From Methylocella sp. (GTDB taxonomy: Bacteria; Pseudomonadota; Alphaproteobacteria; Rhizobiales; Beijerinckiaceae), in NCBI GenBank assembly GCA_037200525.1, contig JBBCGG010000001.1, positions 2,894,501-2,958,500 on the forward strand: 64,000 bases of DNA, in the 5' to 3' direction. Position 1 is the stretch's first letter. Every line of letters begins with the position of its first letter. The notes below the pieces were generated by a model. The model made no database searches. It was not told the origin of the DNA and saw nothing but the letters and a program-made list of their open reading frames with translations. The position numbers and the translations under genes are program-made. Positions 9,384 to 46,487 of this stretch are shown piece by piece.

Positions 9384-9450
9384 TGGTCTGCCCCCTGAAA
9401 AGTGATCCTCCGTGAAGTATGGGCTTATGAGCCTGATGGAGGACTGCGCA

Positions 9451-9729
9451 ATGCCGAGGAAAAGACACAAGGCGGAAGAGATCGTCGCGAAGCTACGGCA
9501 AGTCGAAGTGCTTAGCGCGCAAGGGCGACCGGTCGCGGAGGCGATCCGCTCGATAGGGGTGACGGAAGTTACATACTATCGATGGCGGTCGGAATACGGC
9601 GGCCTGAAGGGCGATCAGGTGAAGCGGCTGAAGGAGCTGGAGGCGGAGAATACGCGGCTCCGTCGAGCGGTGTCCGATTTGACGCTTGAGAAGCTGATCC
9701 TGAAAGAGGCTGCCTCGGGAAACTTCTGA
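9451..9729 (+). CDS. IS3 OrfA (copy 1)
   Basis: The product has 92 residues: MPRKRHKAEEIVAKLRQVEV, a helix-turn-helix (AEAIRSIGVTEVTYYRWRSE) and a leucine-zipper-like segment (RLKELEAENTRLRRAVSDLT), ending EAASGNF. The ATG at 9451 follows a GGAGG sequence. OrfA binds the IS ends; a -1 frameshift near its end should make the OrfAB transposase. This copy alone has His instead of Gln at residue 6. Confidence 0.9.
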   Translation: MPRKRHKAEEIVAKLRQVEVLSAQGRPVAEAIRSIGVTEVTYYRWRSEYGGLKGDQVKRLKELEAENTRLRRAVSDLTLEKLILKEAASGNF

Positions 9730-9752
9730 GCTCCGCGCGTCGTCGCGCCTGC

Positions 9753-10619
9753 GTGGAGCATGTGATCGCCGAACATGGCGTTTCCGAGCGGTTCGCTTGC
9801 CGGGTTCTCGGTCAGCATCGCTCCACGCAGCGCAAGGTTCCGACCAAGCCCGATGACGAAGCGGCATTGATCGCCGACATCACGGCGCTCGCCATCCAGT
9901 ACGGCCGCTATGGCTACCGCCGCATCACGGCGATGTTGTGGGAGCGAGGCTGGAAGGTCAACGTCAAACGGGTCGAGCGGATCTGGCGACGCGAGGGGCT
10001 GAAAGTTCCGGCCAGACAACCCAAGCGCGGGCGTCTCTGGCTCAATGACGGCTCGTGCGTCCGGCTGCGCCCGCAATGCCCCAACCACGTCTGGTCCTAT
10101 GACTTCGTCGAGGACCGCACTCATGATGGCAGGAAATATCGCATGCTGAATATCATCGACGAATTTACCCGCGAATGCATCGCGATCAGGATTAACCGGC
10201 AGCTGAAGGCAGCGGACGTCATCGACGTTCTCTCGGACCTCTTCATCTTGCGAGGGGTTCCGATCCACATTCGTTCCGACAACGGCCCGGAGTTCATCGC
10301 CAAGGCGTTGCGTGACTGGATTGCCGCCGTCGGCGCGAAGACCGCCTACATCATGCCGGGCAGTCCCTGGGAGAACGGCTATTGCGAGAGCTTCAACTCG
10401 AAGCTGCGCGACGAGCTTTTGAATGGTGAAATCTTCTACACTCTCAAGGAGGCGAAGGTCGTCATTGAGCGATGGCGACGCCACTACAACACCGTGCGCC
10501 CGCACTCATCGCTGGGCTACAAGCCGCCAGCCCCGGAGACCCTGCAATGGCCGGCTTCGCAATCCGGACCAGCTTCGCCCGCCACGCCAGCAATAGCGCC
10601 AGGGCCGACAATGCACTAA
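9753..10619 (+). CDS. IS3 OrfB transposase (copy 1)
   Basis: The product has 288 residues with an rve/DDE integrase core: VWSYDFVEDR (first Asp), RSDNGPEF (second Asp), SPWENGYCESFNSKLRDE (Glu), and the IS3 ending RRHYNTVRPHSSLGYKPPAP. The frame is open upstream of the GTG start to the end of OrfA, consistent with programmed -1 frameshifting. All catalytic residues are present, so the protein is probably active. Confidence 0.92.
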   Translation: MEHVIAEHGVSERFACRVLGQHRSTQRKVPTKPDDEAALIADITALAIQYGRYGYRRITAMLWERGWKVNVKRVERIWRREGLKVPARQPKRGRLWLNDGSCVRLRPQCPNHVWSYDFVEDRTHDGRKYRMLNIIDEFTRECIAIRINRQLKAADVIDVLSDLFILRGVPIHIRSDNGPEFIAKALRDWIAAVGAKTAYIMPGSPWENGYCESFNSKLRDELLNGEIFYTLKEAKVVIERWRRHYNTVRPHSSLGYKPPAPETLQWPASQSGPASPATPAIAPGPTMH

Positions 10620-10653
10620 CATTCAAACTGGATCACCCCATGGGGGCAGGCCA

Positions 10654-12682: not shown

Positions 12683-12757
12683 CGCGGAAAGGCGCAGTGG
12701 TAGCGCGTCCGGCTCATACCCGGAAGGCCGTCAGTTCAAATCTGACTTCCGCAACCA
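12683..12757 (+). tRNA. Phage-encoded tRNA-Met (CAU), initiator-like
   Basis: This 75-nt cloverleaf has D arm GCGC/GCGC, anticodon arm TCCGG-CTCATAC-CCGGA with anticodon CAT, five-base variable loop, T arm GTCAG/CTGAC with TTCAAAT loop, and encoded CCA. Position 1 is C and position 72 is A, giving an unpaired first acceptor position (GCGGAA/TTCCGC form the rest). The C1-A72 mismatch is the signature of bacterial initiator tRNA. The second initiator feature, three G-C pairs at 29-31/39-41, is only partly kept because one pair is C-G. Confidence 0.88.
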
Positions 12758-26466: not shown

Positions 26467-26885
26467 ATCTCCTTTTCGGTCACGACAAAACAGTTGCAGA
26501 TTGGGCGTCCAAGAAATTCGGCTCTCCATTGCGCAATTGGTATTGGGCGATTGGGATCATCGATCGTGAAGGGCTCTTGGTTGGAGCCGCATCATTTCAC
26601 GATTTCAACGGATCGAACGTCGAGCTCTGCTTTTATGGCCCCGGCGCGATGACGCCGACGATCCTGCGCGGGTTGATGAAGTTCGCGTTCGTCGGCTTGA
26701 AGGTCAATCGCGTGACGGCCCGGATGCCGCGCCAAAATAAAATCGTGATCAAGGCGCTGCCTCGCTTCGGGTTCAAATGCGAGGGCGTCTTGAAGCGTTA
26801 CTTCGGCCCGACAAAGCGGCTCGATGCGATCATGTTCGGCATTCTGGCCGCGGATGCTCAAAAATATATTGAGAGGGCGAGATGA
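26463..26885 (+). CDS. GNAT acetyltransferase in the tail operon
   Basis: The product has about 140 residues. It contains GIIDREGLLVGAASFHDFNG, MKFAFVGLKVNRVTARMPRQ and FKCEGVLKRYFG, matching GNAT motifs: strand and acetyl-CoA region, and the R...N...A-x-x-x-x-x-GF(K)-x-EG-x-L end. A TTG overlapping the previous stop is the likely start; an in-frame GTG at 26430 is possible. Acetyltransferases at this spot are known in some podoviruses but their substrate is unknown. Confidence 0.7.
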   Translation: MNLLFGHDKTVADWASKKFGSPLRNWYWAIGIIDREGLLVGAASFHDFNGSNVELCFYGPGAMTPTILRGLMKFAFVGLKVNRVTARMPRQNKIVIKALPRFGFKCEGVLKRYFGPTKRLDAIMFGILAADAQKYIERAR

Positions 26886-27895
26886 GTCTCAGTCAGCCGA
26901 CGCCCCCAAATCCCACACAGACGGCTGACACGCAGCAGGGCTTCAATCAACAAGCCGCGACGCAGCAGGCCGAGCTGAATGACGTCAACCAGCAGACGCC
27001 TTTTGGGTCCGAAACTTTCACCCAATCCGGGACCAATCCTGACGGGACACCGAAATTCACTGCGACGACGGCGCTGAGCCCGCAGGAGCAGGGCCTCTTC
27101 AACGCGACAGTCGGGACGCAACAGCAAGTCGCGAACGATGCTGGGCAGTTGGCGACGAACCTCGCGCCGTCTCTGACCTCGGGACCGAACTTGTCGAACG
27201 ATGCTCTGACCAGCCAGCTGCTGAACATGCAAACCCAATTCATGCAGCCGACATTCACGCAGCAACAGAGCAATCTTGACTCGCAGCTCGCCGCGCAGGG
27301 CATCACGCAGGGGTCGACCGCCTACGATAATGCGGAGCGTTCACTCAATCAGAATCAGACCGGATCGGTTGAAAACGCCATGGCGCAGGATCAGAACCAA
27401 GTCTTCAATCAGGCGCTTCAGAGCTATGAGGCTCCAATCCAGACGCTGGGAACGCTCCTCGGCGAGGGCCAACCTGGCTCGGTCAGTTCTTCCCTGGTCT
27501 CAACACCGCAGGAACAAGTTCAGCCGGCCAATTTCGAGAGCACCGCAGAACAGAATTTCGATCAGCAAAATCAGCAGTTCCAGAACACGATTTCAGGCCT
27601 GTTCAGCATCCCGAGCGCGATTCTCGGTGGATTGGCGAGGGCGCCAGGCACGCCGGCCGCCGGTACTACGTCTGATCGCCGCGCGAAGCGGGATATCGCT
27701 GAGATCGGCCGACTCTTCGATGGCAAGCCCGTCTATCGCTTCCGCTATCACGACGATCCGAAGATGCAAATTGGATTGATGGCTCAGGATGTGGCCGAGG
27801 ATTGCCCAGAAGCAGTACATGTCGGCGATGATGGGTTTATGCGCGTGAATTACGAGCGCGCGACCGAGAGCGCGGTGAGGGGCGTCGATGGCTGA
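26882..27895 (+). CDS. Virion protein with C-terminal S74 intramolecular chaperone domain
   Basis: The product has 337 residues. The first 250 are Gln-, Asn- and Thr-rich and mostly helical (ADTQQGFNQQAATQQAELND). From about residue 264 it reads SDRRAKRDIAEIGRL, then YRFRYHD, IGLMAQDVAEDCPEAV and INYERA-like MRVNYERAT. This is the Peptidase_S74 chaperone found at the ends of tail spikes, which drives trimerisation and then cuts itself off at the Ser-Asp junction. It starts in an ATGA overlap with the GNAT gene. Confidence 0.75.
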   Translation: MSLSQPTPPNPTQTADTQQGFNQQAATQQAELNDVNQQTPFGSETFTQSGTNPDGTPKFTATTALSPQEQGLFNATVGTQQQVANDAGQLATNLAPSLTSGPNLSNDALTSQLLNMQTQFMQPTFTQQQSNLDSQLAAQGITQGSTAYDNAERSLNQNQTGSVENAMAQDQNQVFNQALQSYEAPIQTLGTLLGEGQPGSVSSSLVSTPQEQVQPANFESTAEQNFDQQNQQFQNTISGLFSIPSAILGGLARAPGTPAAGTTSDRRAKRDIAEIGRLFDGKPVYRFRYHDDPKMQIGLMAQDVAEDCPEAVHVGDDGFMRVNYERATESAVRGVDG

Positions 27896-29561
27896 TCCGT
27901 CTACCGATGGCCTTGGCGCGGCGCTTGCGGCCTCGCCGAACTTCATCAATCCGGCTTACGCGACGCCGGCGCAGCGACAGCAGCTCTACGCCTATGCTAA
28001 CGAGCTTATGAAGCCGCAGCCGGTGAAAAGCGTGGCGCAGGGATTTGGCGAGCTCGCGCGCGCCCTCGTTGGAGGGTACACGGGTCATCTCGCAGATCAG
28101 CAGGAACAGAACAGTTATGCGGCCCAAGTCGGCAAAACGAACGACTATTTGAACAGTCCACAGGGGGCTGGAAGCTCCCCGCCTGGTGCGCAAACCGCGG
28201 CAAGTGACATCTCCGGCCCAATCCTGCAACAGGAGAGCGGCAATAATCCGAATGTTGCTCCCAGCGTCGACGGCGCTCGAGGCCAAGGCCAGATCATGCC
28301 GGCGACATTCGCCGCCTATGCCAAACCAGGGGAAAGTATCGATAATCCATCCGATAATCTTGCGGTGCATCACCGCATCATTGCGGACTACCAGCAGCGC
28401 TACGGAGGCGACCCCGCGCGCGTTGCCGTAGCCTATTTCTCAGGTCCGGGAAACGTAGCGCCGCCAGGTTCGCCGACGCCCTGGATCGCCGATCGCGAGG
28501 ACGGGAACGGCAAGACTGTCTCAAGCTATGTGAATGACGTCACCGGTCGGGTTAAGCTCGCCGGCCCCGTTCCGACGCCGAACAGCGCGCCACAGCAGCC
28601 AGCTGCTACAAGCGCGCCGACGGTACGCCCGGTCGCTAATCCACAGCGGAACGCAGCTGCGGCATCGCTCTTGGCAATGCCGGACTTAAATCCGGCGACG
28701 GCTGCGATCCTTCAACGCGAATATTCGCCCCAGACGCTTGAAGACCCATATGGAGGGTTTCACTTCGCGACGCCAGCTCAGGGCGCCGGACCCTCGGTTA
28801 CCCCGCAAGTTCATTTCGGGGGCGTTGCCGTTCCTGGCTTTGCGGGAGAGACGACCACATCGCCTGGGCCAACGGGCGCACCGCAGACCCAGGTTATCGC
28901 ACCTTCTCCTCCCCAAGGCGGCCCGCAAGCGGGAAATCCGCTGGCCGGAGCGGCTCCCTTGGTAAATGCTGGAATCGGATTCAAGGCTGCTGAGGACGAA
29001 GCCGGGAAGGATGTCGATACCCTCGCGACTTATCGCAATACGGGCGTCCAGGCGAAGGCCACCCTCGGCATGCTGGATCAAGCCGAGCAACTTGGTCAGA
29101 AGGCGAATTATGGGTTCGTGCCCTTGATGCAGAATTTCCTCGGAAAATATGGCATCAAGACAGACAATCTGCCGGATCAGCAGGCCTACACGGCGGCGGT
29201 TTATGCCCTTGGCGCGACGAGCCCGCAGATTGCGGGGGCATTCGCGAGCTCCCCGCCAAATCTGCTGACCCCGGAGGGCCGGCAAATCGCCTTTGAAAAC
29301 CTGAAAACTCTGGCCAATTATCAGGCTAAGGTGGGGGAAATCGCGGGCGATCGTTCGATTCCCGTCGCGGAACGCATGACGAGAATCCAAGCGCTTCCGC
29401 CCCCGACGCCGCCGCAGGCGCAACAATCTCCAGCGCCGGGCTCGGCGACAGCTTCGCCCACGGCCGCCGCGCCCCCAGTGGGATTCAGACAAGCCAAAGA
29501 CGGCGCCTTTTATGCGCCTGATCCCAATAGGCCTGGCAAGTTTGTAAAGTGGACGCCCTGA
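27888..29561 (+). CDS. Virion-associated lytic transglycosylase-like protein
   Basis: The product has 557 residues. Residues about 105-200 form a transglycosylase (SLT-like) domain: ISGPILQQESGNNPNVAPSV with the catalytic Glu, GARGQGQIMPATFAAYA and VAVAYFSGPGNV. The rest is Pro/Ala-rich and disordered with a helical end. Such proteins are carried in the particle and open the peptidoglycan during DNA entry. Its stop overlaps the next gene (TGATG). Confidence 0.75.
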   Translation: MADPSTDGLGAALAASPNFINPAYATPAQRQQLYAYANELMKPQPVKSVAQGFGELARALVGGYTGHLADQQEQNSYAAQVGKTNDYLNSPQGAGSSPPGAQTAASDISGPILQQESGNNPNVAPSVDGARGQGQIMPATFAAYAKPGESIDNPSDNLAVHHRIIADYQQRYGGDPARVAVAYFSGPGNVAPPGSPTPWIADREDGNGKTVSSYVNDVTGRVKLAGPVPTPNSAPQQPAATSAPTVRPVANPQRNAAAASLLAMPDLNPATAAILQREYSPQTLEDPYGGFHFATPAQGAGPSVTPQVHFGGVAVPGFAGETTTSPGPTGAPQTQVIAPSPPQGGPQAGNPLAGAAPLVNAGIGFKAAEDEAGKDVDTLATYRNTGVQAKATLGMLDQAEQLGQKANYGFVPLMQNFLGKYGIKTDNLPDQQAYTAAVYALGATSPQIAGAFASSPPNLLTPEGRQIAFENLKTLANYQAKVGEIAGDRSIPVAERMTRIQALPPPTPPQAQQSPAPGSATASPTAAAPPVGFRQAKDGAFYAPDPNRPGKFVKWTP

Positions 29562-30259
29562 TGGCGATCGCTCCTGTCGACTATGACCCTTTTGCCGACG
29601 CTCCTGCCGCGCAGGCTTCGGGGACAATTACGCCGGTGGATCATGATCCATTTGCGTCAGAGCCGCATGGCTTTTTGGATACTGCAAAGGATGTCGCGCA
29701 AAGCGGCTTGACCGGCCTCGCCAAGGGCGTCGCTCATATCCCGAGCCTCTACGGCGATGTGCGGGATATGGCATCCAACATCACGCAACAAGGTGCCGCG
29801 TGGGCGCTTGAGTACACTGGTCAACTGCCGCCAGGCAAGACTGCGGCGGATATACTTGCCGATGTGAATAAGCCTGCGCCGAGTGAAACGAACGCTGACC
29901 AGAGCGCGCTCGGCCAAGTCGCGCGCGCCGTCGATAATTTCGCAGCGCCGAACTCGGCCCAGGTCGATCAGGTCGTTCAAAGCGCAGCTGGTGCCTATCA
30001 TCAGCCTCAGACCGAGGCTGGACGCTATGCCGACACGATCGGGCAATTCGTTCCGGCGGCGGCGCTCGGGGGGGGGCTCCGGTCAGATTTGGCGTCATAC
30101 CTGGAGTCGCGTCAGAAGCGGCAGGGCAGGCGACGGAGGGAACTCCATGGGAGCCCGCGGCGCGCGCTATTGCGCCCGTGCTTGCTGGGGGCGCAGCATC
30201 CTTCGCGACGGGACCGACAGTCGAGCAAGGGATGCTGGCCACTGCCACCCGCGGCGTAG
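29561..30259 (+). CDS. Ejection/internal virion protein, 5' part before a frameshift
   Basis: The gene starts at the ATG overlapping the previous stop and is normal up to residue about 170 (DYDPFADAPAAQASGTITPV, GFLDTAKDVAQSGLTGLAKG, QTEAGRYADTIGQFVPAAAL). It then enters a run of nine G at 30068-30076. After the run this frame turns into an Arg-rich nonsense tail (ESRQKRQGRRRRELHGSPRR) and stops, while the protein-like sequence continues in the -1 frame. The gene is therefore a two-part ORF whose full product would be about 700 residues. Confidence 0.75.
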   Translation: MAIAPVDYDPFADAPAAQASGTITPVDHDPFASEPHGFLDTAKDVAQSGLTGLAKGVAHIPSLYGDVRDMASNITQQGAAWALEYTGQLPPGKTAADILADVNKPAPSETNADQSALGQVARAVDNFAAPNSAQVDQVVQSAAGAYHQPQTEAGRYADTIGQFVPAAALGGGLRSDLASYLESRQKRQGRRRRELHGSPRRALLRPCLLGAQHPSRRDRQSSKGCWPLPPAA

Positions 30260-31653
30260 ATGATCAAACCATGCGGGCGGCCCAACAAATCATGGAGGAT
30301 GCTGCGCAACGCGGCATTAGATTGACATCAGCCGAGGCCATCCAGCAAGCGACTGGCGGCGCCACCCAAATGGGTCGTATCCAGCGTCTGGTCGAAGGCA
30401 CGCGGGAAGGCGGGGCAATCACCGCGCCGGCGATGGCGCAACGCCCGGCCCAGGTGGCCGGCGCCGTCAATGACGCACTCGATCGGATCGCTCCCGCCTC
30501 GGCGCAGCCTTCCGTCTTGGGCATGCAGGGACAGGAGGCCGCAAACAGCGCGATCGAAGGCGTAAACCGGAATATCAATCAGGCGTCTCGGCCATTTTAT
30601 CAAGCGGCAGAGGCGCAAACGATAGATCCGCACGATTTTACGCCGATCGCGAATAACCCGGCGTTTCAGGTTTCCCTCAACCGGTTGCGCGCTAATCCGG
30701 TTCTTGGTCCGCAATATGCTCATCTGCCAGATAATGCGATCGGCGTTGTCGACGCAGTGACCAAGGACATGCGGGCGCGAGGGCAAGCACTCTCAAATGT
30801 CGCGAACCCTGGCTTTCAGCCGCAGGAGGCCGCGACGTATGGCGGCGGGGCTTCAGACGCACGGGATATCGCTCGTGACCCAAATCGCGGGGGCGACCCG
30901 AATTACGATGCCGCCCTTTTGCTTCAACAGCGCGGGAGGCAACAATTTCTCGATCCGCTGCAGGCTGGCCCGCTTGGAACGATGAGCGGAACGCCGGCCG
31001 TGCGGGCGCAGACTAGCGCGCTTTTCCCGTCCGCGCCGCTCGAAGGCTCCGCCGCAGAGACGACGCAAGCGATTGGCCACCTAAATCAGCAAAATCCAGC
31101 AATCGCCCCCGCTCTCGCGCGCCAACATCTTGCGACTGCTTTCTCGGAAGCCAGTCAAAACAATGTCCCTGGCGAAAACCAATGGGGAGGCGCTAAATTT
31201 GCAGCACAAGTCGCCGGCAATCCGTTGCAGCGCGAGACGCTAGCAGCCGGGCTCGGAGCGCTTCCGAATGGAGCGGCTGTTGCGCCGGACATTCACAGCT
31301 TATTGACCGCGCTGGAAGCTACGGGAAAACGCCAAGCGCCGGGATCCTTGACAGCCTTCAATGCCGAGGATTTGAAAAATCTTTCAGAGCCGGGGACGGC
31401 GGCGGCGCTGGGAAACACGCTTCTAACTCTGAATCCCGGCTCGATCTGGCAAAAGACGTCAGATGCTCTCACTCGGGCAAGACTTGGAAGCAGATCAGAG
31501 GCGCTTGCGCACGCTCTTCTCGCCAACCCTGGGGAGGCTTTCAGCACCATTATGGAGGCCCAGCGGGCTGCCCCCATAGGGCGCGCGCAACGAGACCTCG
31601 CCGCTGCCCTTCTTGCCGGGCGCACCGGCGCGACTTCGCAGCCAGCGCCATAG
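30178..31653 (+). CDS. Ejection/internal virion protein, 3' part after the frameshift
   Basis: This frame continues the protein begun at 29561. Upstream of the nominal GTG/TTG start it is open back to the nine-G run, where it reads APVRFGVIPGVASEAAGQ, a natural continuation of the other frame. The product is long, helical, and rich in Ala and Gln (DDQTMRAAQQIMEDAAQRGI, INQASRPFYQAAEAQTI), like the internal-core proteins ejected with podovirus DNA. Full-length protein needs a -1 shift at the G run or one extra G. Confidence 0.75.
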   Translation: MLAGGAASFATGPTVEQGMLATATRGVDDQTMRAAQQIMEDAAQRGIRLTSAEAIQQATGGATQMGRIQRLVEGTREGGAITAPAMAQRPAQVAGAVNDALDRIAPASAQPSVLGMQGQEAANSAIEGVNRNINQASRPFYQAAEAQTIDPHDFTPIANNPAFQVSLNRLRANPVLGPQYAHLPDNAIGVVDAVTKDMRARGQALSNVANPGFQPQEAATYGGGASDARDIARDPNRGGDPNYDAALLLQQRGRQQFLDPLQAGPLGTMSGTPAVRAQTSALFPSAPLEGSAAETTQAIGHLNQQNPAIAPALARQHLATAFSEASQNNVPGENQWGGAKFAAQVAGNPLQRETLAAGLGALPNGAAVAPDIHSLLTALEATGKRQAPGSLTAFNAEDLKNLSEPGTAAALGNTLLTLNPGSIWQKTSDALTRARLGSRSEALAHALLANPGEAFSTIMEAQRAAPIGRAQRDLAAALLAGRTGATSQPAP

Positions 31654-32112: not shown

Positions 32113-32179
32113 TGGTCTGCCCCCTGAAAAGTGATCCTCCGTGAAGTATGGGCTTATGAGCCTGATGGAGGACTGCGCA

Positions 32180-32458
32180 ATGCCGAGGAAAAGACAGAAG
32201 GCGGAAGAGATCGTCGCGAAGCTACGGCAAGTCGAAGTGCTTAGCGCGCAAGGGCGACCGGTCGCGGAGGCGATCCGCTCGATAGGGGTGACGGAAGTTA
32301 CATACTATCGATGGCGGTCGGAATACGGCGGCCTGAAGGGCGATCAGGTGAAGCGGCTGAAGGAGCTGGAGGCGGAGAATACGCGGCTCCGTCGAGCGGT
32401 GTCCGATTTGACGCTTGAGAAGCTGATCCTGAAAGAGGCTGCCTCGGGAAACTTCTGA
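32180..32458 (+). CDS. IS3 OrfA (copy 2)
   Basis: As in copy 1 but with Gln at residue 6 (MPRKRQKAEEIVAKLRQ). The helix-turn-helix and leucine-zipper segments are intact, and GGAGG lies upstream of the ATG. Confidence 0.9.
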   Translation: MPRKRQKAEEIVAKLRQVEVLSAQGRPVAEAIRSIGVTEVTYYRWRSEYGGLKGDQVKRLKELEAENTRLRRAVSDLTLEKLILKEAASGNF

Positions 32459-32481
32459 GCTCCGCGCGTCGTCGCGCCTGC

Positions 32482-33348
32482 GTGGAGCATGTGATCGCCG
32501 AACATGGCGTTTCCGAGCGGTTCGCTTGCCGGGTTCTCGGTCAGCATCGCTCCACGCAGCGCAAGGTTCCGACCAAGCCCGATGACGAAGCGGCATTGAT
32601 CGCCGACATCACGGCGCTCGCCATCCAGTACGGCCGCTATGGCTACCGCCGCATCACGGCGATGTTGTGGGAGCGAGGCTGGAAGATCAACGTCAAACGG
32701 GTCGAGCGGATCTGGCGACGCGAGGGGCTGAAAGTTCCGGCCAGACAACCCAAGCGCGGGCGTCTCTGGCTCAATGACGGCTCGTGCGTCCGGCTGCGCC
32801 CGCAATGCCCCAACCACGTCTGGTCCTATGACTTCGTCGAGGACCGCACTCATGATGGCAGGAAATATCGCATGCTGAATATCATCGACGAATTTACCCG
32901 CGAATGCATCGCGATCAGGATTAACCGGCAGCTGAAGGCAGCGGACGTCATCGACGTTCTCTCGGACCTCTTCATCTTGCGAGGGGTTCCGGTCCACATT
33001 CGTTCCGACAACGGCCCGGAGTTCATCGCCAAGGCGTTGCGTGACTGGATTGCCGCCGTCGGCGCGAAGACCGCCTACATCATGCCGGGCAGTCCCTGGG
33101 AGAACGGCTATTGCGAGAGCTTCAACTCGAAGCTGCGCGACGAGCTTTTGAATGGTGAAATCTTCTACACTCTCAAGGAGGCGAAGGTCGTCATTGAGCG
33201 ATGGCGACGCCACTACAACACCGTGCGCCCGCACTCATCGCTGGGCTACAAGCCGCCAGCCCCGGAGACCCTGCAATGGCCGGCTTCGCAATCCGGACCA
33301 GCTTCGCCCGCCACGCCAGCAATAGCGCCAGGGCCGACAATGCACTAA
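32482..33348 (+). CDS. IS3 OrfB transposase (copy 2)
   Basis: The product has 288 residues with intact DDE residues (SYDF, SDNGPEF, GYCESF). It is in the -1 frame relative to OrfA and is identical at protein level to copy 3. Confidence 0.92.
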   Translation: MEHVIAEHGVSERFACRVLGQHRSTQRKVPTKPDDEAALIADITALAIQYGRYGYRRITAMLWERGWKINVKRVERIWRREGLKVPARQPKRGRLWLNDGSCVRLRPQCPNHVWSYDFVEDRTHDGRKYRMLNIIDEFTRECIAIRINRQLKAADVIDVLSDLFILRGVPVHIRSDNGPEFIAKALRDWIAAVGAKTAYIMPGSPWENGYCESFNSKLRDELLNGEIFYTLKEAKVVIERWRRHYNTVRPHSSLGYKPPAPETLQWPASQSGPASPATPAIAPGPTMH

Positions 33349-33382
33349 CATTCAAACTGGATCACCCCATGGGGGCAGGCCA

Positions 33383-35276: not shown

Positions 35277-35554
35277 CGCCGGAAATGTACGCCCATTGGG
35301 TGGCCTTCCTCGAATATCGCATCGGCTGGCAATACGACATGAAGGCCATTCTGGGGTTCGCGACGTTCAACGGCGGCCTGCATGATCCGCGTAAACTGAT
35401 CTGCTCGGCCTCGATCGCCGACTCGCTTCGTCACTGCGGCTGGTGGCCCATCCCGCTCGCCAAACGCTACCACGCCATAGATCCTGTTACGGTTCTGCTC
35501 ATGCTCCAAGCGGATGTGCGCAGCATCGTCCATCCCACGGAGACGCTGACATGA
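35273..35554 (+). CDS. Papain-like protein, C-terminal part
   Basis: The product has 93 residues: MTPEMYAHWVAFLEYRIGWQ, YDMKAILGFA, then KLICSASIADSLRHCGWWP. ICSAS is the position expected for the catalytic Cys in the two-part fold. In related proteins as I know them, the TPE-x-Y-x-x-W segment directly follows the sequence that ends the upstream ORF (FVDL), so the two ORFs are halves of one domain. Coupling is by ATGA. It ends by ATGA overlap with the holin candidate. Confidence 0.6.
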   Translation: MTPEMYAHWVAFLEYRIGWQYDMKAILGFATFNGGLHDPRKLICSASIADSLRHCGWWPIPLAKRYHAIDPVTVLLMLQADVRSIVHPTETLT

Positions 35555-36003
35555 ACACGCTCGTAAGCATCGGGCCGGTCGTTGAATTTCTGAAGCCCGC
35601 CATCCAGGACGTCGCGGCGGTCGTGATCCTCGCGGGACTCGGCGCCGTGGGGAATCTCGCGCGTAAATATCTCAAGATCCAGATCTCCAGTTCGCAGATG
35701 GATCTCGTGCGCAAGGCGATGGCGGACGAAGTGCATCGCATGGTCGGCGAAGGCGTCGACAAGCTCTCGACGATCAACGTCAACGTCGAGTCGCCGCAGG
35801 TGGCGCGGGTCGCTAACGCCGCGATCGCTAATGCCGGGCCCGTTGTCGCGAAGTTGGGCATCACTCCCGATGAGGTGAAGGCGTTGGCCCTCAGCACGAT
35901 TGGCGCCTATCAGGCGAGCGTCGAGAGCAATCCCGCGCCTGTCGTTGTATCGCCCGCGCCGATCGCCGCGCCGCCGGCGGCCGCAGGTCTCGTGACCACC
36001 TAA
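35551..36003 (+). CDS. Holin candidate, 150 residues (prophage 1)
   Basis: One N-terminal membrane helix (DVAAVVILAGLGAVGNLA, about residues 20-37) is followed by a basic amphipathic region (ARKYLKIQISSSQMDLVRKA), a helical domain and an Ala/Pro-rich tail. This resembles the LLH-type holins, and the position in the lysis module agrees. It starts in an ATGA overlap. An identical copy is at 45053. Confidence 0.6.
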   Translation: MNTLVSIGPVVEFLKPAIQDVAAVVILAGLGAVGNLARKYLKIQISSSQMDLVRKAMADEVHRMVGEGVDKLSTINVNVESPQVARVANAAIANAGPVVAKLGITPDEVKALALSTIGAYQASVESNPAPVVVSPAPIAAPPAAAGLVTT

Positions 36004-36041
36004 GAAGTTCGCCGAGGAAGGCTTTCAGGGGATAATTCGAA

Positions 36042-36398
36042 ATGGCGGACGAAGGCGAAAATCGTGAACACCGGCTGCTCAACGAGCGCTGGACGTGGGA
36101 AAAAGAAATGGTTGCACTCACATCGGACAACCAAGCCAGGATCAGAAATCTCGAAGAGGGGATTAAGCCGCTAGCCCAGCTTTCCCTCAATCTCGAGCGG
36201 TTTGTCGCGAAGTTCGAAGCGCTCATCGATCGCTTTGAATCCGTAGAGAATATGCGCGAGGACCTCGATCAGCTCATAGCCAGCGAGAACCAACGCAAAG
36301 GCGCCGACGCGCGGAACATACGAAACTCGCTCCTGGGTGGACTTGGAGGGGGTTTGGCGTCCGGCGTGGGCGCTTGGCTGCTGACGCACATAAAATGA
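36042..36398 (+). CDS. Coiled-coil protein with C-terminal membrane anchor (prophage 1)
   Basis: The product has 118 residues. A charged coiled coil (LNERWTWEKEMVALTSDNQA, LNLERFVAKFEALIDRFESV) ends in a Gly-rich membrane segment (NSLLGGLGGGLASGVGAWLL). It resembles small tail-anchored phage lysis accessory proteins (XhlA or spanin-like layout) but lacks a lipobox. It is preceded by GGGGATAATTCGAA and follows the holin candidate by 38 bases. An identical copy is at 45544. Confidence 0.55.
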   Translation: MADEGENREHRLLNERWTWEKEMVALTSDNQARIRNLEEGIKPLAQLSLNLERFVAKFEALIDRFESVENMREDLDQLIASENQRKGADARNIRNSLLGGLGGGLASGVGAWLLTHIK

Positions 36399-36409
36399 GG
36401 ACGCCTGCA

Positions 36410-36949
36410 ATGACTAGATTGGTGGTCAAGGTCCTTTTGTTTGCGATGCTGGCGCTGGCGCCGGCTGCGGCTCACGCTCAAATGCGAGCGTTCGTAGTCA
36501 CATCGTGCGCGGATCTCCCGGCGATCTACAATCCCGGCAGTCAGGGCATCCCAGTGATCGACGAGACAGGCGCTGCTTGCACTGGCGGCGGCGGGGGCGG
36601 CGGCTTTACCCCCAACCTCGGTAATCAGACCAAGCCCAACGCGCAGGCGACTACGCCGGCGACTGGCGCGACTATTACCATGACAAAAACCACGGTTGGA
36701 ACAACGGTTGTTTCGATCGCTCCGCTTTCGACAGCAATGGTTCATCGTGTCGTAAAGAACTGTTCGCCGAACACTTCGACGCCACCCGCCGCGCCATCAC
36801 CAATTCTAACGGTTGGACCGTCGGCAACGACAACCGCAACTGGTTTTGATCTCGCGCCCGGTGAAAGCTTGGATGTGTCCACGCTAACGGCGCAGGTGTT
36901 TGGGATCAGCAATGTCGCCGGAACTGTCGCCTGCTATTTTGCAAACTGA
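36410..36949 (+). CDS. Secreted protein, constant head/variable tail (prophage 1 form)
   Basis: The product has 179 residues. The signal peptide (MTRLVVKVLLFAMLALAPAA, AHA) is followed by a conserved segment (MRAFVVTSCADLPAIYNPGS, QGIPVIDETGAACTGGG), a poly-Gly linker of seven residues and a Thr-rich C-terminal domain (PLSTAMVHRVVKNCSPNTST...). The prophage 2 paralogue at 45912 shares the head and linker but has a different tail. This is a modular exported protein; function unknown. Cys pairs suggest disulfides. Confidence 0.6.
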   Translation: MTRLVVKVLLFAMLALAPAAAHAQMRAFVVTSCADLPAIYNPGSQGIPVIDETGAACTGGGGGGGFTPNLGNQTKPNAQATTPATGATITMTKTTVGTTVVSIAPLSTAMVHRVVKNCSPNTSTPPAAPSPILTVGPSATTTATGFDLAPGESLDVSTLTAQVFGISNVAGTVACYFAN

Positions 36950-38907: not shown

Positions 38908-38983
38908 TCCCTGATAGCTCAGCTGGTAGAGCAATCGACTGTTAATCGATCGGTCGCAGGTTCGAGTCCTGCTCAGGGAGCCA
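38908..38983 (+). tRNA. tRNA-Asn (GTT), probable phage attachment site
   Basis: A complete 76-nt tRNA: acceptor TCCCTGA/TCAGGGA, D arm GCTC/GAGC, anticodon GTT in CTGTTAATC, T arm GCAGGTTCGAGTCCTGC, discriminator G and CCA. An integrase gene starts 24 bases after it and faces it, the usual layout for integration at a tRNA 3' end. No second copy of its 3' end was seen elsewhere in the window. Confidence 0.95.
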
Positions 38984-39006: not shown

Positions 39007-39730
39007 TTATGTGGTTTCCGCCACAAGGCCCTCACCGAATTCGGGTGGTGGGGGCATAGGATCTGAAGATTCCTCTCTCGCCATTTTTGCCATTGCTCCG
39101 CGCGCAAGCCTCTTCCGGTTTGCTGCTTTCGTATAAAGCGACGCCATCCGACCGCCGGTCCAGCCGAAAATCGCCTCAAGTTCTGCTTCGGTCGCGCCGT
39201 TGTTTGCTGCATGCGTGGCGCCGGCCTTACGCAGACCGTGTGCTGCGCCAGGCACACCTGCTGCATTACAGGCATCGCGGAACCAGTTTCCGAAGCTTTC
39301 CTTGGTCATAGGGTCGCCGGATGGCGTGGCAACGAAGGCTCCATCGCCGGTCTTGCTCACGGCGATAATCTTTTCCAGCACAGGCAAAATGGGGATTTCG
39401 ACGATTGTCCCTGTTTTTTCAGTCGTCATGGTGATCAGGCCATCCCGGACGTGCTGTCTGCCGAGCCTAGCCGCGTCGCCCCGCCGCAGACCTGTATAGA
39501 GCAATATTGCCAGCGCTAAGCGCTCTCGCGTCCCGATCGGCCACCTCTTCTCGAAGCGCCTGATCTCCTCGTCGGTCCAGGTATGAAAACCTTTGGTTTT
39601 GTGACCGAATCCATCGACGTTCTTTGTCGGATCAACCGTTAAGTGCTTAGCCTTGACTGCCCATTGAAATAAACCGCGCATCGCCTTCAAGAAATCATTT
39701 CCAGCAAATGGCGTATCTCTGCGTTTATCG
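39007..39730 (-). pseudogene. int: Tyrosine integrase, C-terminal catalytic part, split by IS copy 3
   Basis: The catalytic domain is intact: TGLRRGDAARL (first Arg), AAHGLRKAGATHA (H-x-x-R) and GRMASLYTKAANRKRLARG with the Tyr nucleophile. The N-terminal part lies beyond IS copy 3 at 41001-41363. Removing the IS and one ATCG repeat restores the reading IIDSRD-KRRDTPFAGNDFLK. The gene points toward tRNA-Asn. As it stands, no full-length integrase can be made. Confidence 0.9.
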
Positions 39731-39797
39731 TGGTCTGCCCCCTGAAAAGTGATCCTCCGTGAAGTATGGGCTTATGAGCCTGATGGAGGACTGCGCA

Positions 39798-40076
39798 ATG
39801 CCGAGGAAAAGACAGAAGGCGGAAGAGATCGTCGCGAAGCTACGGCAAGTCGAAGTGCTTAGCGCGCAAGGGCGACCGGTCGCGGAGGCGATCCGCTCGA
39901 TAGGGGTGACGGAAGTTACATACTATCGATGGCGGTCGGAATACGGCGGCCTGAAGGGCGATCAGGTGAAGCGGCTGAAGGAGCTGGAGGCGGAGAATAC
40001 GCGGCTCCGTCGAGCGGTGTCCGATTTGACGCTTGAGAAGCTGATCCTGAAAGAGGCTGCCTCGGGAAACTTCTGA
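39798..40076 (+). CDS. IS3 OrfA (copy 3)
   Basis: Identical at protein level to OrfA of copies 2 and 4 (MPRKRQKAEEIVAKLRQ start). The motifs are intact. Confidence 0.9.
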   Translation: MPRKRQKAEEIVAKLRQVEVLSAQGRPVAEAIRSIGVTEVTYYRWRSEYGGLKGDQVKRLKELEAENTRLRRAVSDLTLEKLILKEAASGNF

Positions 40077-40099
40077 GCTCCGCGCGTCGTCGCGCCTGC

Positions 40100-40966
40100 G
40101 TGGAGCATGTGATCGCCGAACATGGCGTTTCCGAGCGGTTCGCTTGCCGGGTTCTCGGTCAGCATCGCTCCACGCAGCGCAAGGTTCCGACCAAGCCCGA
40201 TGACGAAGCGGCATTGATCGCCGACATCACGGCGCTCGCCATCCAGTACGGCCGCTATGGCTACCGCCGCATCACGGCGATGTTGTGGGAGCGAGGCTGG
40301 AAGATCAACGTCAAACGGGTCGAGCGGATCTGGCGACGCGAGGGGCTGAAAGTTCCGGCCAGACAACCCAAGCGCGGGCGTCTCTGGCTCAATGACGGCT
40401 CGTGCGTCCGGCTGCGCCCGCAATGCCCCAACCACGTCTGGTCCTATGACTTCGTCGAGGACCGCACTCATGATGGCAGGAAATATCGCATGCTGAATAT
40501 CATCGACGAATTTACCCGCGAATGCATCGCGATCAGGATTAACCGGCAGCTGAAGGCAGCGGACGTCATCGACGTTCTCTCGGACCTCTTCATCTTGCGA
40601 GGGGTTCCGGTCCACATTCGTTCCGACAACGGCCCGGAGTTCATCGCCAAGGCGTTGCGTGACTGGATTGCCGCCGTCGGCGCGAAGACCGCCTACATCA
40701 TGCCGGGCAGTCCCTGGGAGAACGGCTATTGCGAGAGCTTCAACTCGAAGCTGCGCGACGAGCTTTTGAATGGTGAAATCTTCTACACTCTCAAGGAGGC
40801 GAAGGTCGTCATTGAGCGATGGCGACGCCACTACAACACCGTGCGCCCGCACTCATCGCTGGGCTACAAGCCGCCAGCCCCGGAGACCCTGCAATGGCCG
40901 GCTTCGCAATCCGGACCAGCTTCGCCCGCCACGCCAGCAATAGCGCCAGGGCCGACAATGCACTAA
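40100..40966 (+). CDS. IS3 OrfB transposase (copy 3)
   Basis: The product has 288 residues with DDE residues intact. It shares WKINVKR and VPVHIRS with copy 2. Confidence 0.92.
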   Translation: MEHVIAEHGVSERFACRVLGQHRSTQRKVPTKPDDEAALIADITALAIQYGRYGYRRITAMLWERGWKINVKRVERIWRREGLKVPARQPKRGRLWLNDGSCVRLRPQCPNHVWSYDFVEDRTHDGRKYRMLNIIDEFTRECIAIRINRQLKAADVIDVLSDLFILRGVPVHIRSDNGPEFIAKALRDWIAAVGAKTAYIMPGSPWENGYCESFNSKLRDELLNGEIFYTLKEAKVVIERWRRHYNTVRPHSSLGYKPPAPETLQWPASQSGPASPATPAIAPGPTMH

Positions 40967-41000
40967 CATTCAAACTGGATCACCCCATGGGGGCAGGCCA

Positions 41001-41363
41001 ATCGCGGGAATCAATAATGACTTCCTCTGTGATGGCAGCAAACGGCTCTTTCCCAGCGGATTTTAGCATCACTTTATAAATATTGCCGCGCTGGCTCTGG
41101 GTAGCTGACGATAACCTTGTCCATTCCGATGCTTCCTTATATCGATCAACTAGCCAAGTAAGGCTTTCTGATTCAACCGGAACACTGGCGGACATCTTCC
41201 CGGCCACCGCCGCGTAATAGGCCTCTTCAAACTCCAGAGTTCCGAACTTTTCCTTTATACGTGTCCTGCGCCCCTTTCCTTTGCGGACATACCATACCGT
41301 CGCGCCATGGCGTGTCGTCTGCTTCTGGAGGAAGGGCCACCTAGGCTTCGGCATGGACCGCAT
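41001..41363 (-). pseudogene. int: Tyrosine integrase, N-terminal part
   Basis: Starting at the ATG at 41363 it reads MRSMPKPRWPFLQKQTTRHG, ATVWYVRKGKGRRTRIKEKF, then the arm-binding and core-binding helices (LTWLVDRYKEASEWTRLSSA). The sequence is cut at the IS boundary after EEVIIDSRD. The other part is at 39007-39730. The first part of the N-terminal domain is typical of alphaproteobacterial phage integrases with W-Y-x-R-x-G-KGRR. Confidence 0.85.
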
Positions 41364-43735: not shown

Positions 43736-43802
43736 TGGTCTGCCCCCTGAAAAGTGATCCTCCGTGAAGTATGGGCTTATGAGCCTGATGGAGGACTGCG
43801 CA

Positions 43803-44081
43803 ATGCCGAGGAAAAGACAGAAGGCGGAAGAGATCGTCGCGAAGCTACGGCAAGTCGAAGTGCTTAGCGCGCAAGGGCGACCGGTCGCGGAGGCGATCCG
43901 CTCGATAGGGGTGACGGAAGTTACATACTATCGATGGCGGTCGGAATACGGCGGCCTGAAGGGCGATCAGGTGAAGCGGCTGAAGGAGCTGGAGGCGGAG
44001 AATACGCGGCTCCGTCGAGCGGTGTCCGATTTGACGCTTGAGAAGCTGATCCTGAAAGAGGCTGCCTCGGGAAACTTCTGA
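43803..44081 (+). CDS. IS3 OrfA (copy 4)
   Basis: Intact OrfA, identical at protein level to copies 2 and 3. GGAGG precedes the ATG. Confidence 0.9.
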   Translation: MPRKRQKAEEIVAKLRQVEVLSAQGRPVAEAIRSIGVTEVTYYRWRSEYGGLKGDQVKRLKELEAENTRLRRAVSDLTLEKLILKEAASGNF

Positions 44082-44104
44082 GCTCCGCGCGTCGTCGCGC
44101 CTGC

Positions 44105-44971
44105 GTGGAGCATGTGATCGCCGAACATGGCGTTTCCGAGCGGTTCGCTTGCCGGGTTCTCGGTCAGCATCGCTCCACGCAGCGCAAGGTTCCGACCAAG
44201 CCCGATGACGAAGCGGCATTGATCGCCGACATCACGGCGCTCGCCATCCAGTACGGCCGCTATGGCTACCGCCGCATCACGGCGATGTTGTGGGAGCGAG
44301 GCTGGAAGGTCAACGTCAAACGGGTCGAGCGGATCTGGCGACGCGAGGGGCTGAAAGTTCCGGCCAGACAACCCAAGCGCGGGCGTCTCTGGCTCAATGA
44401 CGGCTCGTGCGTCCGGCTGCGCCCGCAATGCCCCAACCACGTCTGGTCCTATGACTTCGTCGAGGACCGCACTCATGATGGCAGGAAATATCGCATGCTG
44501 AATATCATCGACGAATTTACCCGCGAATGCATCGCGATCAGGATTAACCGGAAGCTGAAGGCAGCGGACGTCATCGACGTTCTCTCGGACCTCTTCATCT
44601 TGCGAGGGGTTCCGATCCACATTCGTTCCGACAACGGCCCGGAGTTCATCGCCAAGGCGTTGCGTGACTGGATTGCCGCCGTCGGCGCGAAGACCGCCTA
44701 CATCATGCCGGGCAGTCCCTGGGAGAACGGCTATTGCGAGAGCTTCAACTCGAAGCTGCGCGACGAGCTTTTGAATGGTGAAATCTTCTACACTCTCAAG
44801 GAGGCGAAGGTCGTCATTGAGCGATGGCGACGCCACTACAACACCGTGCGCCCGCACTCATCGCTGGGCTACAAGCCGCCAGCCCCGGAGACCCTGCAAT
44901 GGCCGGCTTCGCAATCCGGACCAGCTTCGCCCGCCACGCCAGCAATAGCGCCAGGGCCGACAATGCACTAA
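44105..44971 (+). CDS. IS3 OrfB transposase (copy 4)
   Basis: The product has 288 residues with intact DDE residues. It differs from the other copies by Lys for Gln in NRKLKAAD. Confidence 0.92.
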   Translation: MEHVIAEHGVSERFACRVLGQHRSTQRKVPTKPDDEAALIADITALAIQYGRYGYRRITAMLWERGWKVNVKRVERIWRREGLKVPARQPKRGRLWLNDGSCVRLRPQCPNHVWSYDFVEDRTHDGRKYRMLNIIDEFTRECIAIRINRKLKAADVIDVLSDLFILRGVPIHIRSDNGPEFIAKALRDWIAAVGAKTAYIMPGSPWENGYCESFNSKLRDELLNGEIFYTLKEAKVVIERWRRHYNTVRPHSSLGYKPPAPETLQWPASQSGPASPATPAIAPGPTMH

Positions 44972-45005
44972 CATTCAAACTGGATCACCCCATGGGGGCA
45001 GGCCA

Positions 45006-45056
45006 CTCCAAGCGGATGTGCGCAGCATCGTCCATCCCACGGAGACGCTGACATGA
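45006..45056 (+). pseudogene. Tail of the papain-like gene, duplicated
   Basis: Directly after IS copy 4 the sequence reads LQADVRSIVHPTETLT and stop, the last 16 codons of the gene at 35273-35554. The rest of that gene is missing here. Confidence 0.85.
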
Positions 45057-45505
45057 ACACGCTCGTAAGCATCGGGCCGGTCGTTGAATTTCTGAAGCCC
45101 GCCATCCAGGACGTCGCGGCGGTCGTGATCCTCGCGGGACTCGGCGCCGTGGGGAATCTCGCGCGTAAATATCTCAAGATCCAGATCTCCAGTTCGCAGA
45201 TGGATCTCGTGCGCAAGGCGATGGCGGACGAAGTGCATCGCATGGTCGGCGAAGGCGTCGACAAGCTCTCGACGATCAACGTCAACGTCGAGTCGCCGCA
45301 GGTGGCGCGGGTCGCTAACGCCGCGATCGCTAATGCCGGGCCCGTTGTCGCGAAGTTGGGCATCACTCCCGATGAGGTGAAGGCGTTGGCCCTCAGCACG
45401 ATTGGCGCCTATCAGGCGAGCGTCGAGAGCAATCCCGCGCCTGTCGTTGTATCGCCCGCGCCGATCGCCGCGCCGCCGGCGGCCGCAGGTCTCGTGACCA
45501 CCTAA
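45053..45505 (+). CDS. Holin candidate (prophage 2 copy)
   Basis: Identical to the protein at 35551-36003, with the same membrane helix near residues 20-37. The upstream gene it used to be coupled to is truncated, so expression here may depend on a promoter in or before IS copy 4. Confidence 0.6.
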   Translation: MNTLVSIGPVVEFLKPAIQDVAAVVILAGLGAVGNLARKYLKIQISSSQMDLVRKAMADEVHRMVGEGVDKLSTINVNVESPQVARVANAAIANAGPVVAKLGITPDEVKALALSTIGAYQASVESNPAPVVVSPAPIAAPPAAAGLVTT

Positions 45506-45543
45506 GAAGTTCGCCGAGGAAGGCTTTCAGGGGATAATTCGAA

Positions 45544-45900
45544 ATGGCGGACGAAGGCGAAAATCGTGAACACCGGCTGCTCAACGAGCGCTGGACGTGG
45601 GAAAAAGAAATGGTTGCACTCACATCGGACAACCAAGCCAGGATCAGAAATCTCGAAGAGGGGATTAAGCCGCTAGCCCAGCTTTCCCTCAATCTCGAGC
45701 GGTTTGTCGCGAAGTTCGAAGCGCTCATCGATCGCTTTGAATCCGTAGAGAATATGCGCGAGGACCTCGATCAGCTCATAGCCAGCGAGAACCAACGCAA
45801 AGGCGCCGACGCGCGGAACATACGAAACTCGCTCCTGGGTGGACTTGGAGGGGGTTTGGCGTCCGGCGTGGGCGCTTGGCTGCTGACGCACATAAAATGA
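45544..45900 (+). CDS. Coiled-coil membrane-anchored protein (prophage 2 copy)
   Basis: Identical to the protein at 36042-36398, with a C-terminal Gly-rich membrane segment. It is part of the duplicated block. Confidence 0.55.
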   Translation: MADEGENREHRLLNERWTWEKEMVALTSDNQARIRNLEEGIKPLAQLSLNLERFVAKFEALIDRFESVENMREDLDQLIASENQRKGADARNIRNSLLGGLGGGLASGVGAWLLTHIK

Positions 45901-45911
45901 GGACGCCTGCA

Positions 45912-46487
45912 ATGACTAGATTGGTGGTCAAGGTCCTTTTGTTTGCGATGCTGGCGCTGGCGCCGGCTGCGGCTCATGCGCAAATGCGCGCGTTCGTTGT
46001 CACCTCATGCGACTCTCTGCCGGCGATCTATAATCCGGGTAGTCAGGGCATTCCGGTAATCGACGAGACCGGCGCCGCTTGCACGGGTGGTGGAGGAGGT
46101 GGCGGCGGTGGCGCGATCAGTCAGCCTCTGGGTGGCGCAACTCCGCTGGCTCAGGCTGTTGCGGTCACTATCGTCCCCAACGTGAAGACGCTGACGGATC
46201 GCAGCGGCGCGGTAACGACGGGCGGCACCTCTCAGACTTTGGTCGCGTCGGTCTCTGCTAGAATGACGATCTTCATCGAGAATCCGTGCACAGCCGCTTC
46301 GCAAAATATCACGACGGCCGAGAGCCTCTTCATCAACTTCACGGCTGCTGCATCTACGACGGCAGGCGGATCGATCGAGCTAGCCCCCTGTGGGGTTTAT
46401 AGCACGGGCACGGGACCGGTTTCGACCGAGGCGATTACGGTCACAGCGACGACGGCCGGCCATAGGTGGACCGCGAAGATCGAGTGA
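45912..46487 (+). CDS. Secreted protein, constant head/variable tail (prophage 2 form)
   Basis: The product has 191 residues. The signal peptide is identical to the prophage 1 form; the following segment is highly similar (MRAFVVTSCDSLPAIYNPGS). A nine-Gly linker leads to a different C-terminal domain (ISQPLGGATPLAQAVAVTIV, RMTIFIENPCTAASQNIT, GGSIELAPCGVYSTGTG) ending GHRWTAKIE. The tail looks like a beta-sandwich with a likely disulfide. The function is unknown; head/tail modularity suggests a variable exposed or target-binding domain. Confidence 0.6.
   Translation: MTRLVVKVLLFAMLALAPAAAHAQMRAFVVTSCDSLPAIYNPGSQGIPVIDETGAACTGGGGGGGGGAISQPLGGATPLAQAVAVTIVPNVKTLTDRSGAVTTGGTSQTLVASVSARMTIFIENPCTAASQNITTAESLFINFTAAASTTAGGSIELAPCGVYSTGTGPVSTEAITVTATTAGHRWTAKIE

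Follow-up and report, generated by a model that had tools for sequence, protein, structure and literature searches.

The window analysed here, a 64-kb stretch of a Methylocella sp. chromosome, carries a prophage in which a virion gene is broken at a run of nine G (30068-30076, + strand). The broken gene and its two upstream neighbours are arranged as follows:

26882-27895, + strand: virion structural or DNA-ejection-like gene with a C-terminal S74 peptidase (chaperone) domain
27888-29561, + strand: virion gene of the internal or ejection type with an SLT transglycosylase domain; its positional counterpart in Rhizobium phage RHph_N65 is annotated 'putative injection protein'
29561-30076, + strand: 5′ part of the broken gene, 172 codons in the native frame, 69% identical to residues 1-172 of the Methylocapsa palsarum homologue
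30077-30259, + strand: out-of-frame tail of the truncated product, approximately 60 residues, with its stop at 30257-30259
30076-31653, + strand: 3′ part of the broken gene in the −1 frame, 525 codons plus stop, free of internal stops

The ATG at 29561 and the stop codon of the gene before it overlap as TGATG, and the reading frame is lost at the G9 tract. From 30076, the −1 frame reads APVRFGVIPGVASEAAGQ and stays open to 31653, whereas the tail in the original frame has no homology to relatives in that frame. A preliminary description of this locus had reported the nine G, a frame that is protein-like from 29561 up to the run and a long −1 open reading frame after it, all of which we find in the sequence. 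It had also proposed that the two halves form one protein of about 700 residues, and this agrees with the nearest relative, in M. palsarum NE2, which is encoded in one frame of 697 codons.

The broken gene sits in an ejection-type virion cassette, adjoining the gene for the SLT-domain virion protein, and the S74-domain gene further upstream matches 'DNA ejection protein' among other PHROGs. Neither half has a convincing named family in PHROG or Pfam; one distant homologue matches a PHROG of unknown function. For the M. palsarum protein, structure prediction (mean pLDDT 81) gives a fold that is helical throughout, with a confident core from approximately residue 220 to 600, and places the break, at about residue 172, between two helices. 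On this model, the truncated product would be without the entire helical core. No solved structure in the PDB matched by sequence or by fold. The fold matches among viral models were almost all to uncharacterised proteins; some LT_GEWL-domain proteins and one 'Injection protein (Fragment)' were among the weak ones. The preliminary assignment as an ejection-protein gene holds for the cassette; for the product of 29561-31653 itself, we infer an ejection function from its position, which is reasonable.

Comparison with the M. palsarum protein gave 69% identity for the 5′ part and 85% for the 3′ part, and the two matched regions adjoin directly. Because both halves align colinearly to this single 697-residue protein, the frame break at G9 is far beyond chance. 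The same match to one unbroken protein rules out two genuine separate genes. A second close relative (G009) is 81% identical in the 3′ part and reads in one frame across the G9 site, as does the more distant RHph_N65 gene EVC08_011, an intact homologue of the whole gene that lies directly downstream of the 'putative injection protein'. Scanning viral contigs with a single protein alone returned no match, and an alignment-based profile search was needed to recover 67 loci, to which a further genome search added more. We aligned 76 homologous open reading frames; apart from a few truncated by contig ends, each one that spans the site reads through it without interruption. Approximately 70 relatives covering the site, from IMG/VR contigs, related genomes and RHph_N65, thus have a single frame there, and in this comparison the break is a singleton, seen in one genome only. 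Within the genome itself, no second intact copy of the gene was found, the sole other match being 59 bp long. Several viral homologues (L120, L122, L125, L127 and L128) are longer, at 863-978 amino acids, and most of these have an unmatched stretch between profile positions of about 334-355 and 455-469, suggestive of an inserted or exchanged domain.

The tract is as isolated as the break. Comparing run lengths in related prophages, a check raised by the preliminary description, we found that no homologue has a G run above 5 within 25 alignment columns of this junction; a long tract is absent from all of them. Where the window has the tract, the two nearest relatives carry the residues AAAGGSPLRFG and AAAGGAPLRFG. 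As both read two glycines there, the ancestral tract was likely in frame and coded for two glycines, and would most simply have expanded; shortening of a longer tract may be an alternative.

The preliminary description had offered programmed frameshifting as one cause, and our comparison contradicts it. Under this explanation, −1 frameshifting on the G run, by the ribosome or through transcriptional slippage, would produce both a short and a full-length protein. The direction of the shift and the slippery run fit, as in phage tail assembly chaperone genes, which are likewise structural genes with a −1 shift on a slippery run, and G runs can permit low-level frameshifting (7 G in the herpesvirus thymidine kinase gene; PMC5009743). 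However, the homologues are in one frame with no long G run at the site, which excludes a conserved programmed frameshift, and the RNA downstream folds no better than shuffled sequences (z 0.12 and −0.34). Stimulatory RNA structures downstream are not obligatory for programmed frameshifting. Unlike the tail assembly chaperone genes, this is another phage gene with neither a conserved site nor a structure. We therefore rejected programmed frameshifting on the lack of conservation of the break and slippery tract and of downstream RNA structure, and consider it highly unlikely.

The 3′ part shows no sign of decay. Its pairwise dN/dS against two relatives is approximately 0.06-0.09, and dN on the branch leading to the window is 0.05-0.09, compared with 0.03-0.08 on the other branches; these similar values fit a break too young for relaxed constraint to show, or constraint that has not relaxed. 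The absence of a stop in 525 codons, together with the low dN/dS, means that either the frame was broken recently or the gene is intact and its tract miscalled. The sequence by itself fits both; a recent break seems to us the more probable.

To place the tract in its genomic context, we surveyed G-run lengths by pattern searches. G9 at 30068-30076 is the only G or C run of at least 8 in the 64-kb window; 52 of 100 dinucleotide shuffles contained at least as many G8 matches as the window, so a G9 alone is not improbable there. The 5.24-Mb chromosome, a single contig, has 82 G runs of exactly 7, 10 of exactly 8 and 13 of at least 9, the present tract being one of the 13. This heavy tail is what growth of long tracts by slippage would give. 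A more direct comparison comes from three copies of an IS21-like element, which show 0 mismatches over approximately 1.76 kb and differ solely in a G tract just before the transposase start:

G000:C1 3060228: IS21-like copy with a tract of 12 G (L141)
G000:C1 3578093: IS21-like copy with a tract of 8 G (L142)
G000:C1 2480887: IS21-like copy with a tract of 7 G (L143)

A fourth, more diverged copy (L144) has a tract of 6. Since the three copies differ in the G tract alone, G tracts mutate much faster than bases or are miscalled; long G runs in this assembly either change faster than any base or are unreliably read.

The second of these possibilities has to be weighed for the broken gene as well. 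If the tract were a sequencing or assembly error, its true length would be in frame and the gene intact, as in its relatives. In favour of an error, miscalls classically show up as singleton frame breaks in homopolymers with homologues intact (PMC3711429). Constraint on the 3′ part is normal, and the variable G runs of the IS21-like copies could themselves be miscalls. Against an error, clear host genes in the same assembly carry G/C runs of 8-9 in frame. These include genes for a CobB-like synthase, a PNP-family phosphorylase and HemB by Pfam, the HemB run lying in its N-terminal extension, and for an AsmA-like protein, a D-Ala-D-Ala carboxypeptidase and an ATPase by reading of the sequence alone. 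A general homopolymer failure of the assembly is therefore unsupported, although these approximately six in-frame cases bound its homopolymer error rate only loosely. In addition, the chromosome is one contig with 99.81% completeness, and a two-base mistake would be needed if the true length keeps the spacing of the relatives. Taken together, we regard an error as a real possibility but a doubtful one, and the length of the tract as probably genuine.

Elsewhere in the genome, a C10 run splits an alpha/beta-hydrolase frame (L029, 1248-1914); the same locus, which also contains a fragment of a dehydrogenase, has the look of a rearranged remnant in any case.

The prophage itself is degraded. Insertion sequences interrupt it, one of them lies where its left end has been lost and another splits the nearby integrase gene, as set out below:

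9384-10653, + strand: IS copy 1, IS3-family-like, 1270 bp, bordering what survives of the prophage on the left; no target duplication
32113-33382, + strand: IS copy 2, IS3-family-like, 1270 bp, just downstream of the broken gene; target duplication CAT
39007-39690 and 40980-41363, minus strand: two pieces of a tyrosine integrase gene, split by IS copy 3 and adjoining a tRNA-Asn gene (38908-38983)
39731-41000, + strand: IS copy 3, IS3-family-like, 1270 bp, inside the tyrosine integrase gene; target duplication ATCG
43736-45005: IS copy 4, beside the remnant of a second, related phage; no target duplication

The absence of target duplications at copies 1 and 4 suggests deletions between insertion sequences, and at the left edge of the prophage, where copy 1 lies, an IS-mediated deletion is likely. 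Searching the genome with the 1270-bp element gave at least 40 matches, 39 of those listed being full length at 99-100% identity; with four near-identical copies in the window, this is a recent IS burst. The prophage probably cannot complete a cycle. The structural genes examined look intact, which counts against reading the broken gene as a pseudogene.

Two further features of the region were observed. A tRNA-Met gene (anticodon CAT) lies amid phage genes at 12683-12757. A right-end phage module of 1.1 kb is present twice (35504-36604 and 45006-46106, 97.7% identity), and its last gene diverges beyond a poly-glycine linker, the two copies ending in unrelated C-terminal domains; the module at 45006-46106 seems to be what remains of a second prophage, related to the first and with an exchangeable domain.

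Damage of this kind extends to the second close relative. In the G009 prophage, the same gene is independently broken by a different lesion near codon 43, and the upstream S74-domain gene is split by a stop with an ATGA overlap (loci with breaks, L043 15814-17905 and 13015-14021). These lesions indicate that loss of such genes recurs and is not unusual in prophages of the genus.

The state of the prophage also bears on phase variation, another of the causes put forward in the preliminary description. In that case, replication slippage would let the G tract toggle the virion protein reversibly, and infectious particles would come from part of the prophage population. A long coding-frame G tract is the right kind of sequence, tracts of this type differ between repeat copies in the same assembly, a likeness to phase-variable poly-G and poly-C genes, and the 3′ part is undecayed. 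A hypermutable tract does lie near the break, but it is not kept in related genes and is absent from all relatives. Moreover, known genes of the slippage type mostly encode exposed or modifying functions (PMC3711429), whereas the product here is an internal virion protein, and the damaged prophage is probably unable to finish its cycle. Beyond the tract itself, we found no positive evidence for phase variation and think it improbable. Its population-level form, in which most prophage copies among the lysogens are disarmed and a slippage-derived minority makes infectious particles, seems to us very improbable.

Missing from the three options of the preliminary description was the cause that we consider likeliest, simple mutation by slippage in a prophage undergoing decay. 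We propose that the gene at 29561-31653 originally specified a single virion protein, some 700 residues long, largely helical and probably belonging to the DNA-ejection cassette. Its short in-frame G tract, two glycines in the nearest relatives, would have changed length by replication strand slippage, most simply by growth. With the tract now out of phase, translation would run on in the wrong frame and terminate after some 60 codons, short of the entire conserved core, and the truncated product would presumably be non-functional. Occasional slippage on the run could still produce small amounts of full-length protein, although we see no indication of any use for it. The locus would then be a pseudogene in a defective prophage, created by a recent G-tract slippage frameshift, and this is the explanation that we consider probable.

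This explanation accords with the GeneTack classification of frame-broken genes, in which genes subject to programmed frameshifting or phase variation group into clusters of relatives with frame breaks, while singletons with intact homologues represent recent indels or sequencing errors (PMC3711429). As in the singleton homopolymer-indel pseudogenes of that scheme, the break is at a homopolymer, is confined to one genome, has intact homologues and lies in decaying mobile DNA. Nothing of substance differs, and the element copies with 12, 8 and 7 G provide an unusually clear control. An isolated frame break beside intact homologues is also what is expected of a pseudogene. Two observations count against slippage: the G12/G8/G7 pattern would likewise be expected if the assembler miscalls long G runs, and an undecayed 3′ part also fits an intact gene with a miscalled tract.

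For annotation, the finding is mainly a caution. By homologue comparison, the split gene is neither two genes nor a recoding site, and its annotation should describe a virion protein of approximately 700 amino acids in a frameshifted (or miscalled) copy. For this genome, the IS21-like copies serve as an internal yardstick of how fast G tracts change, or how unreliably they are read.
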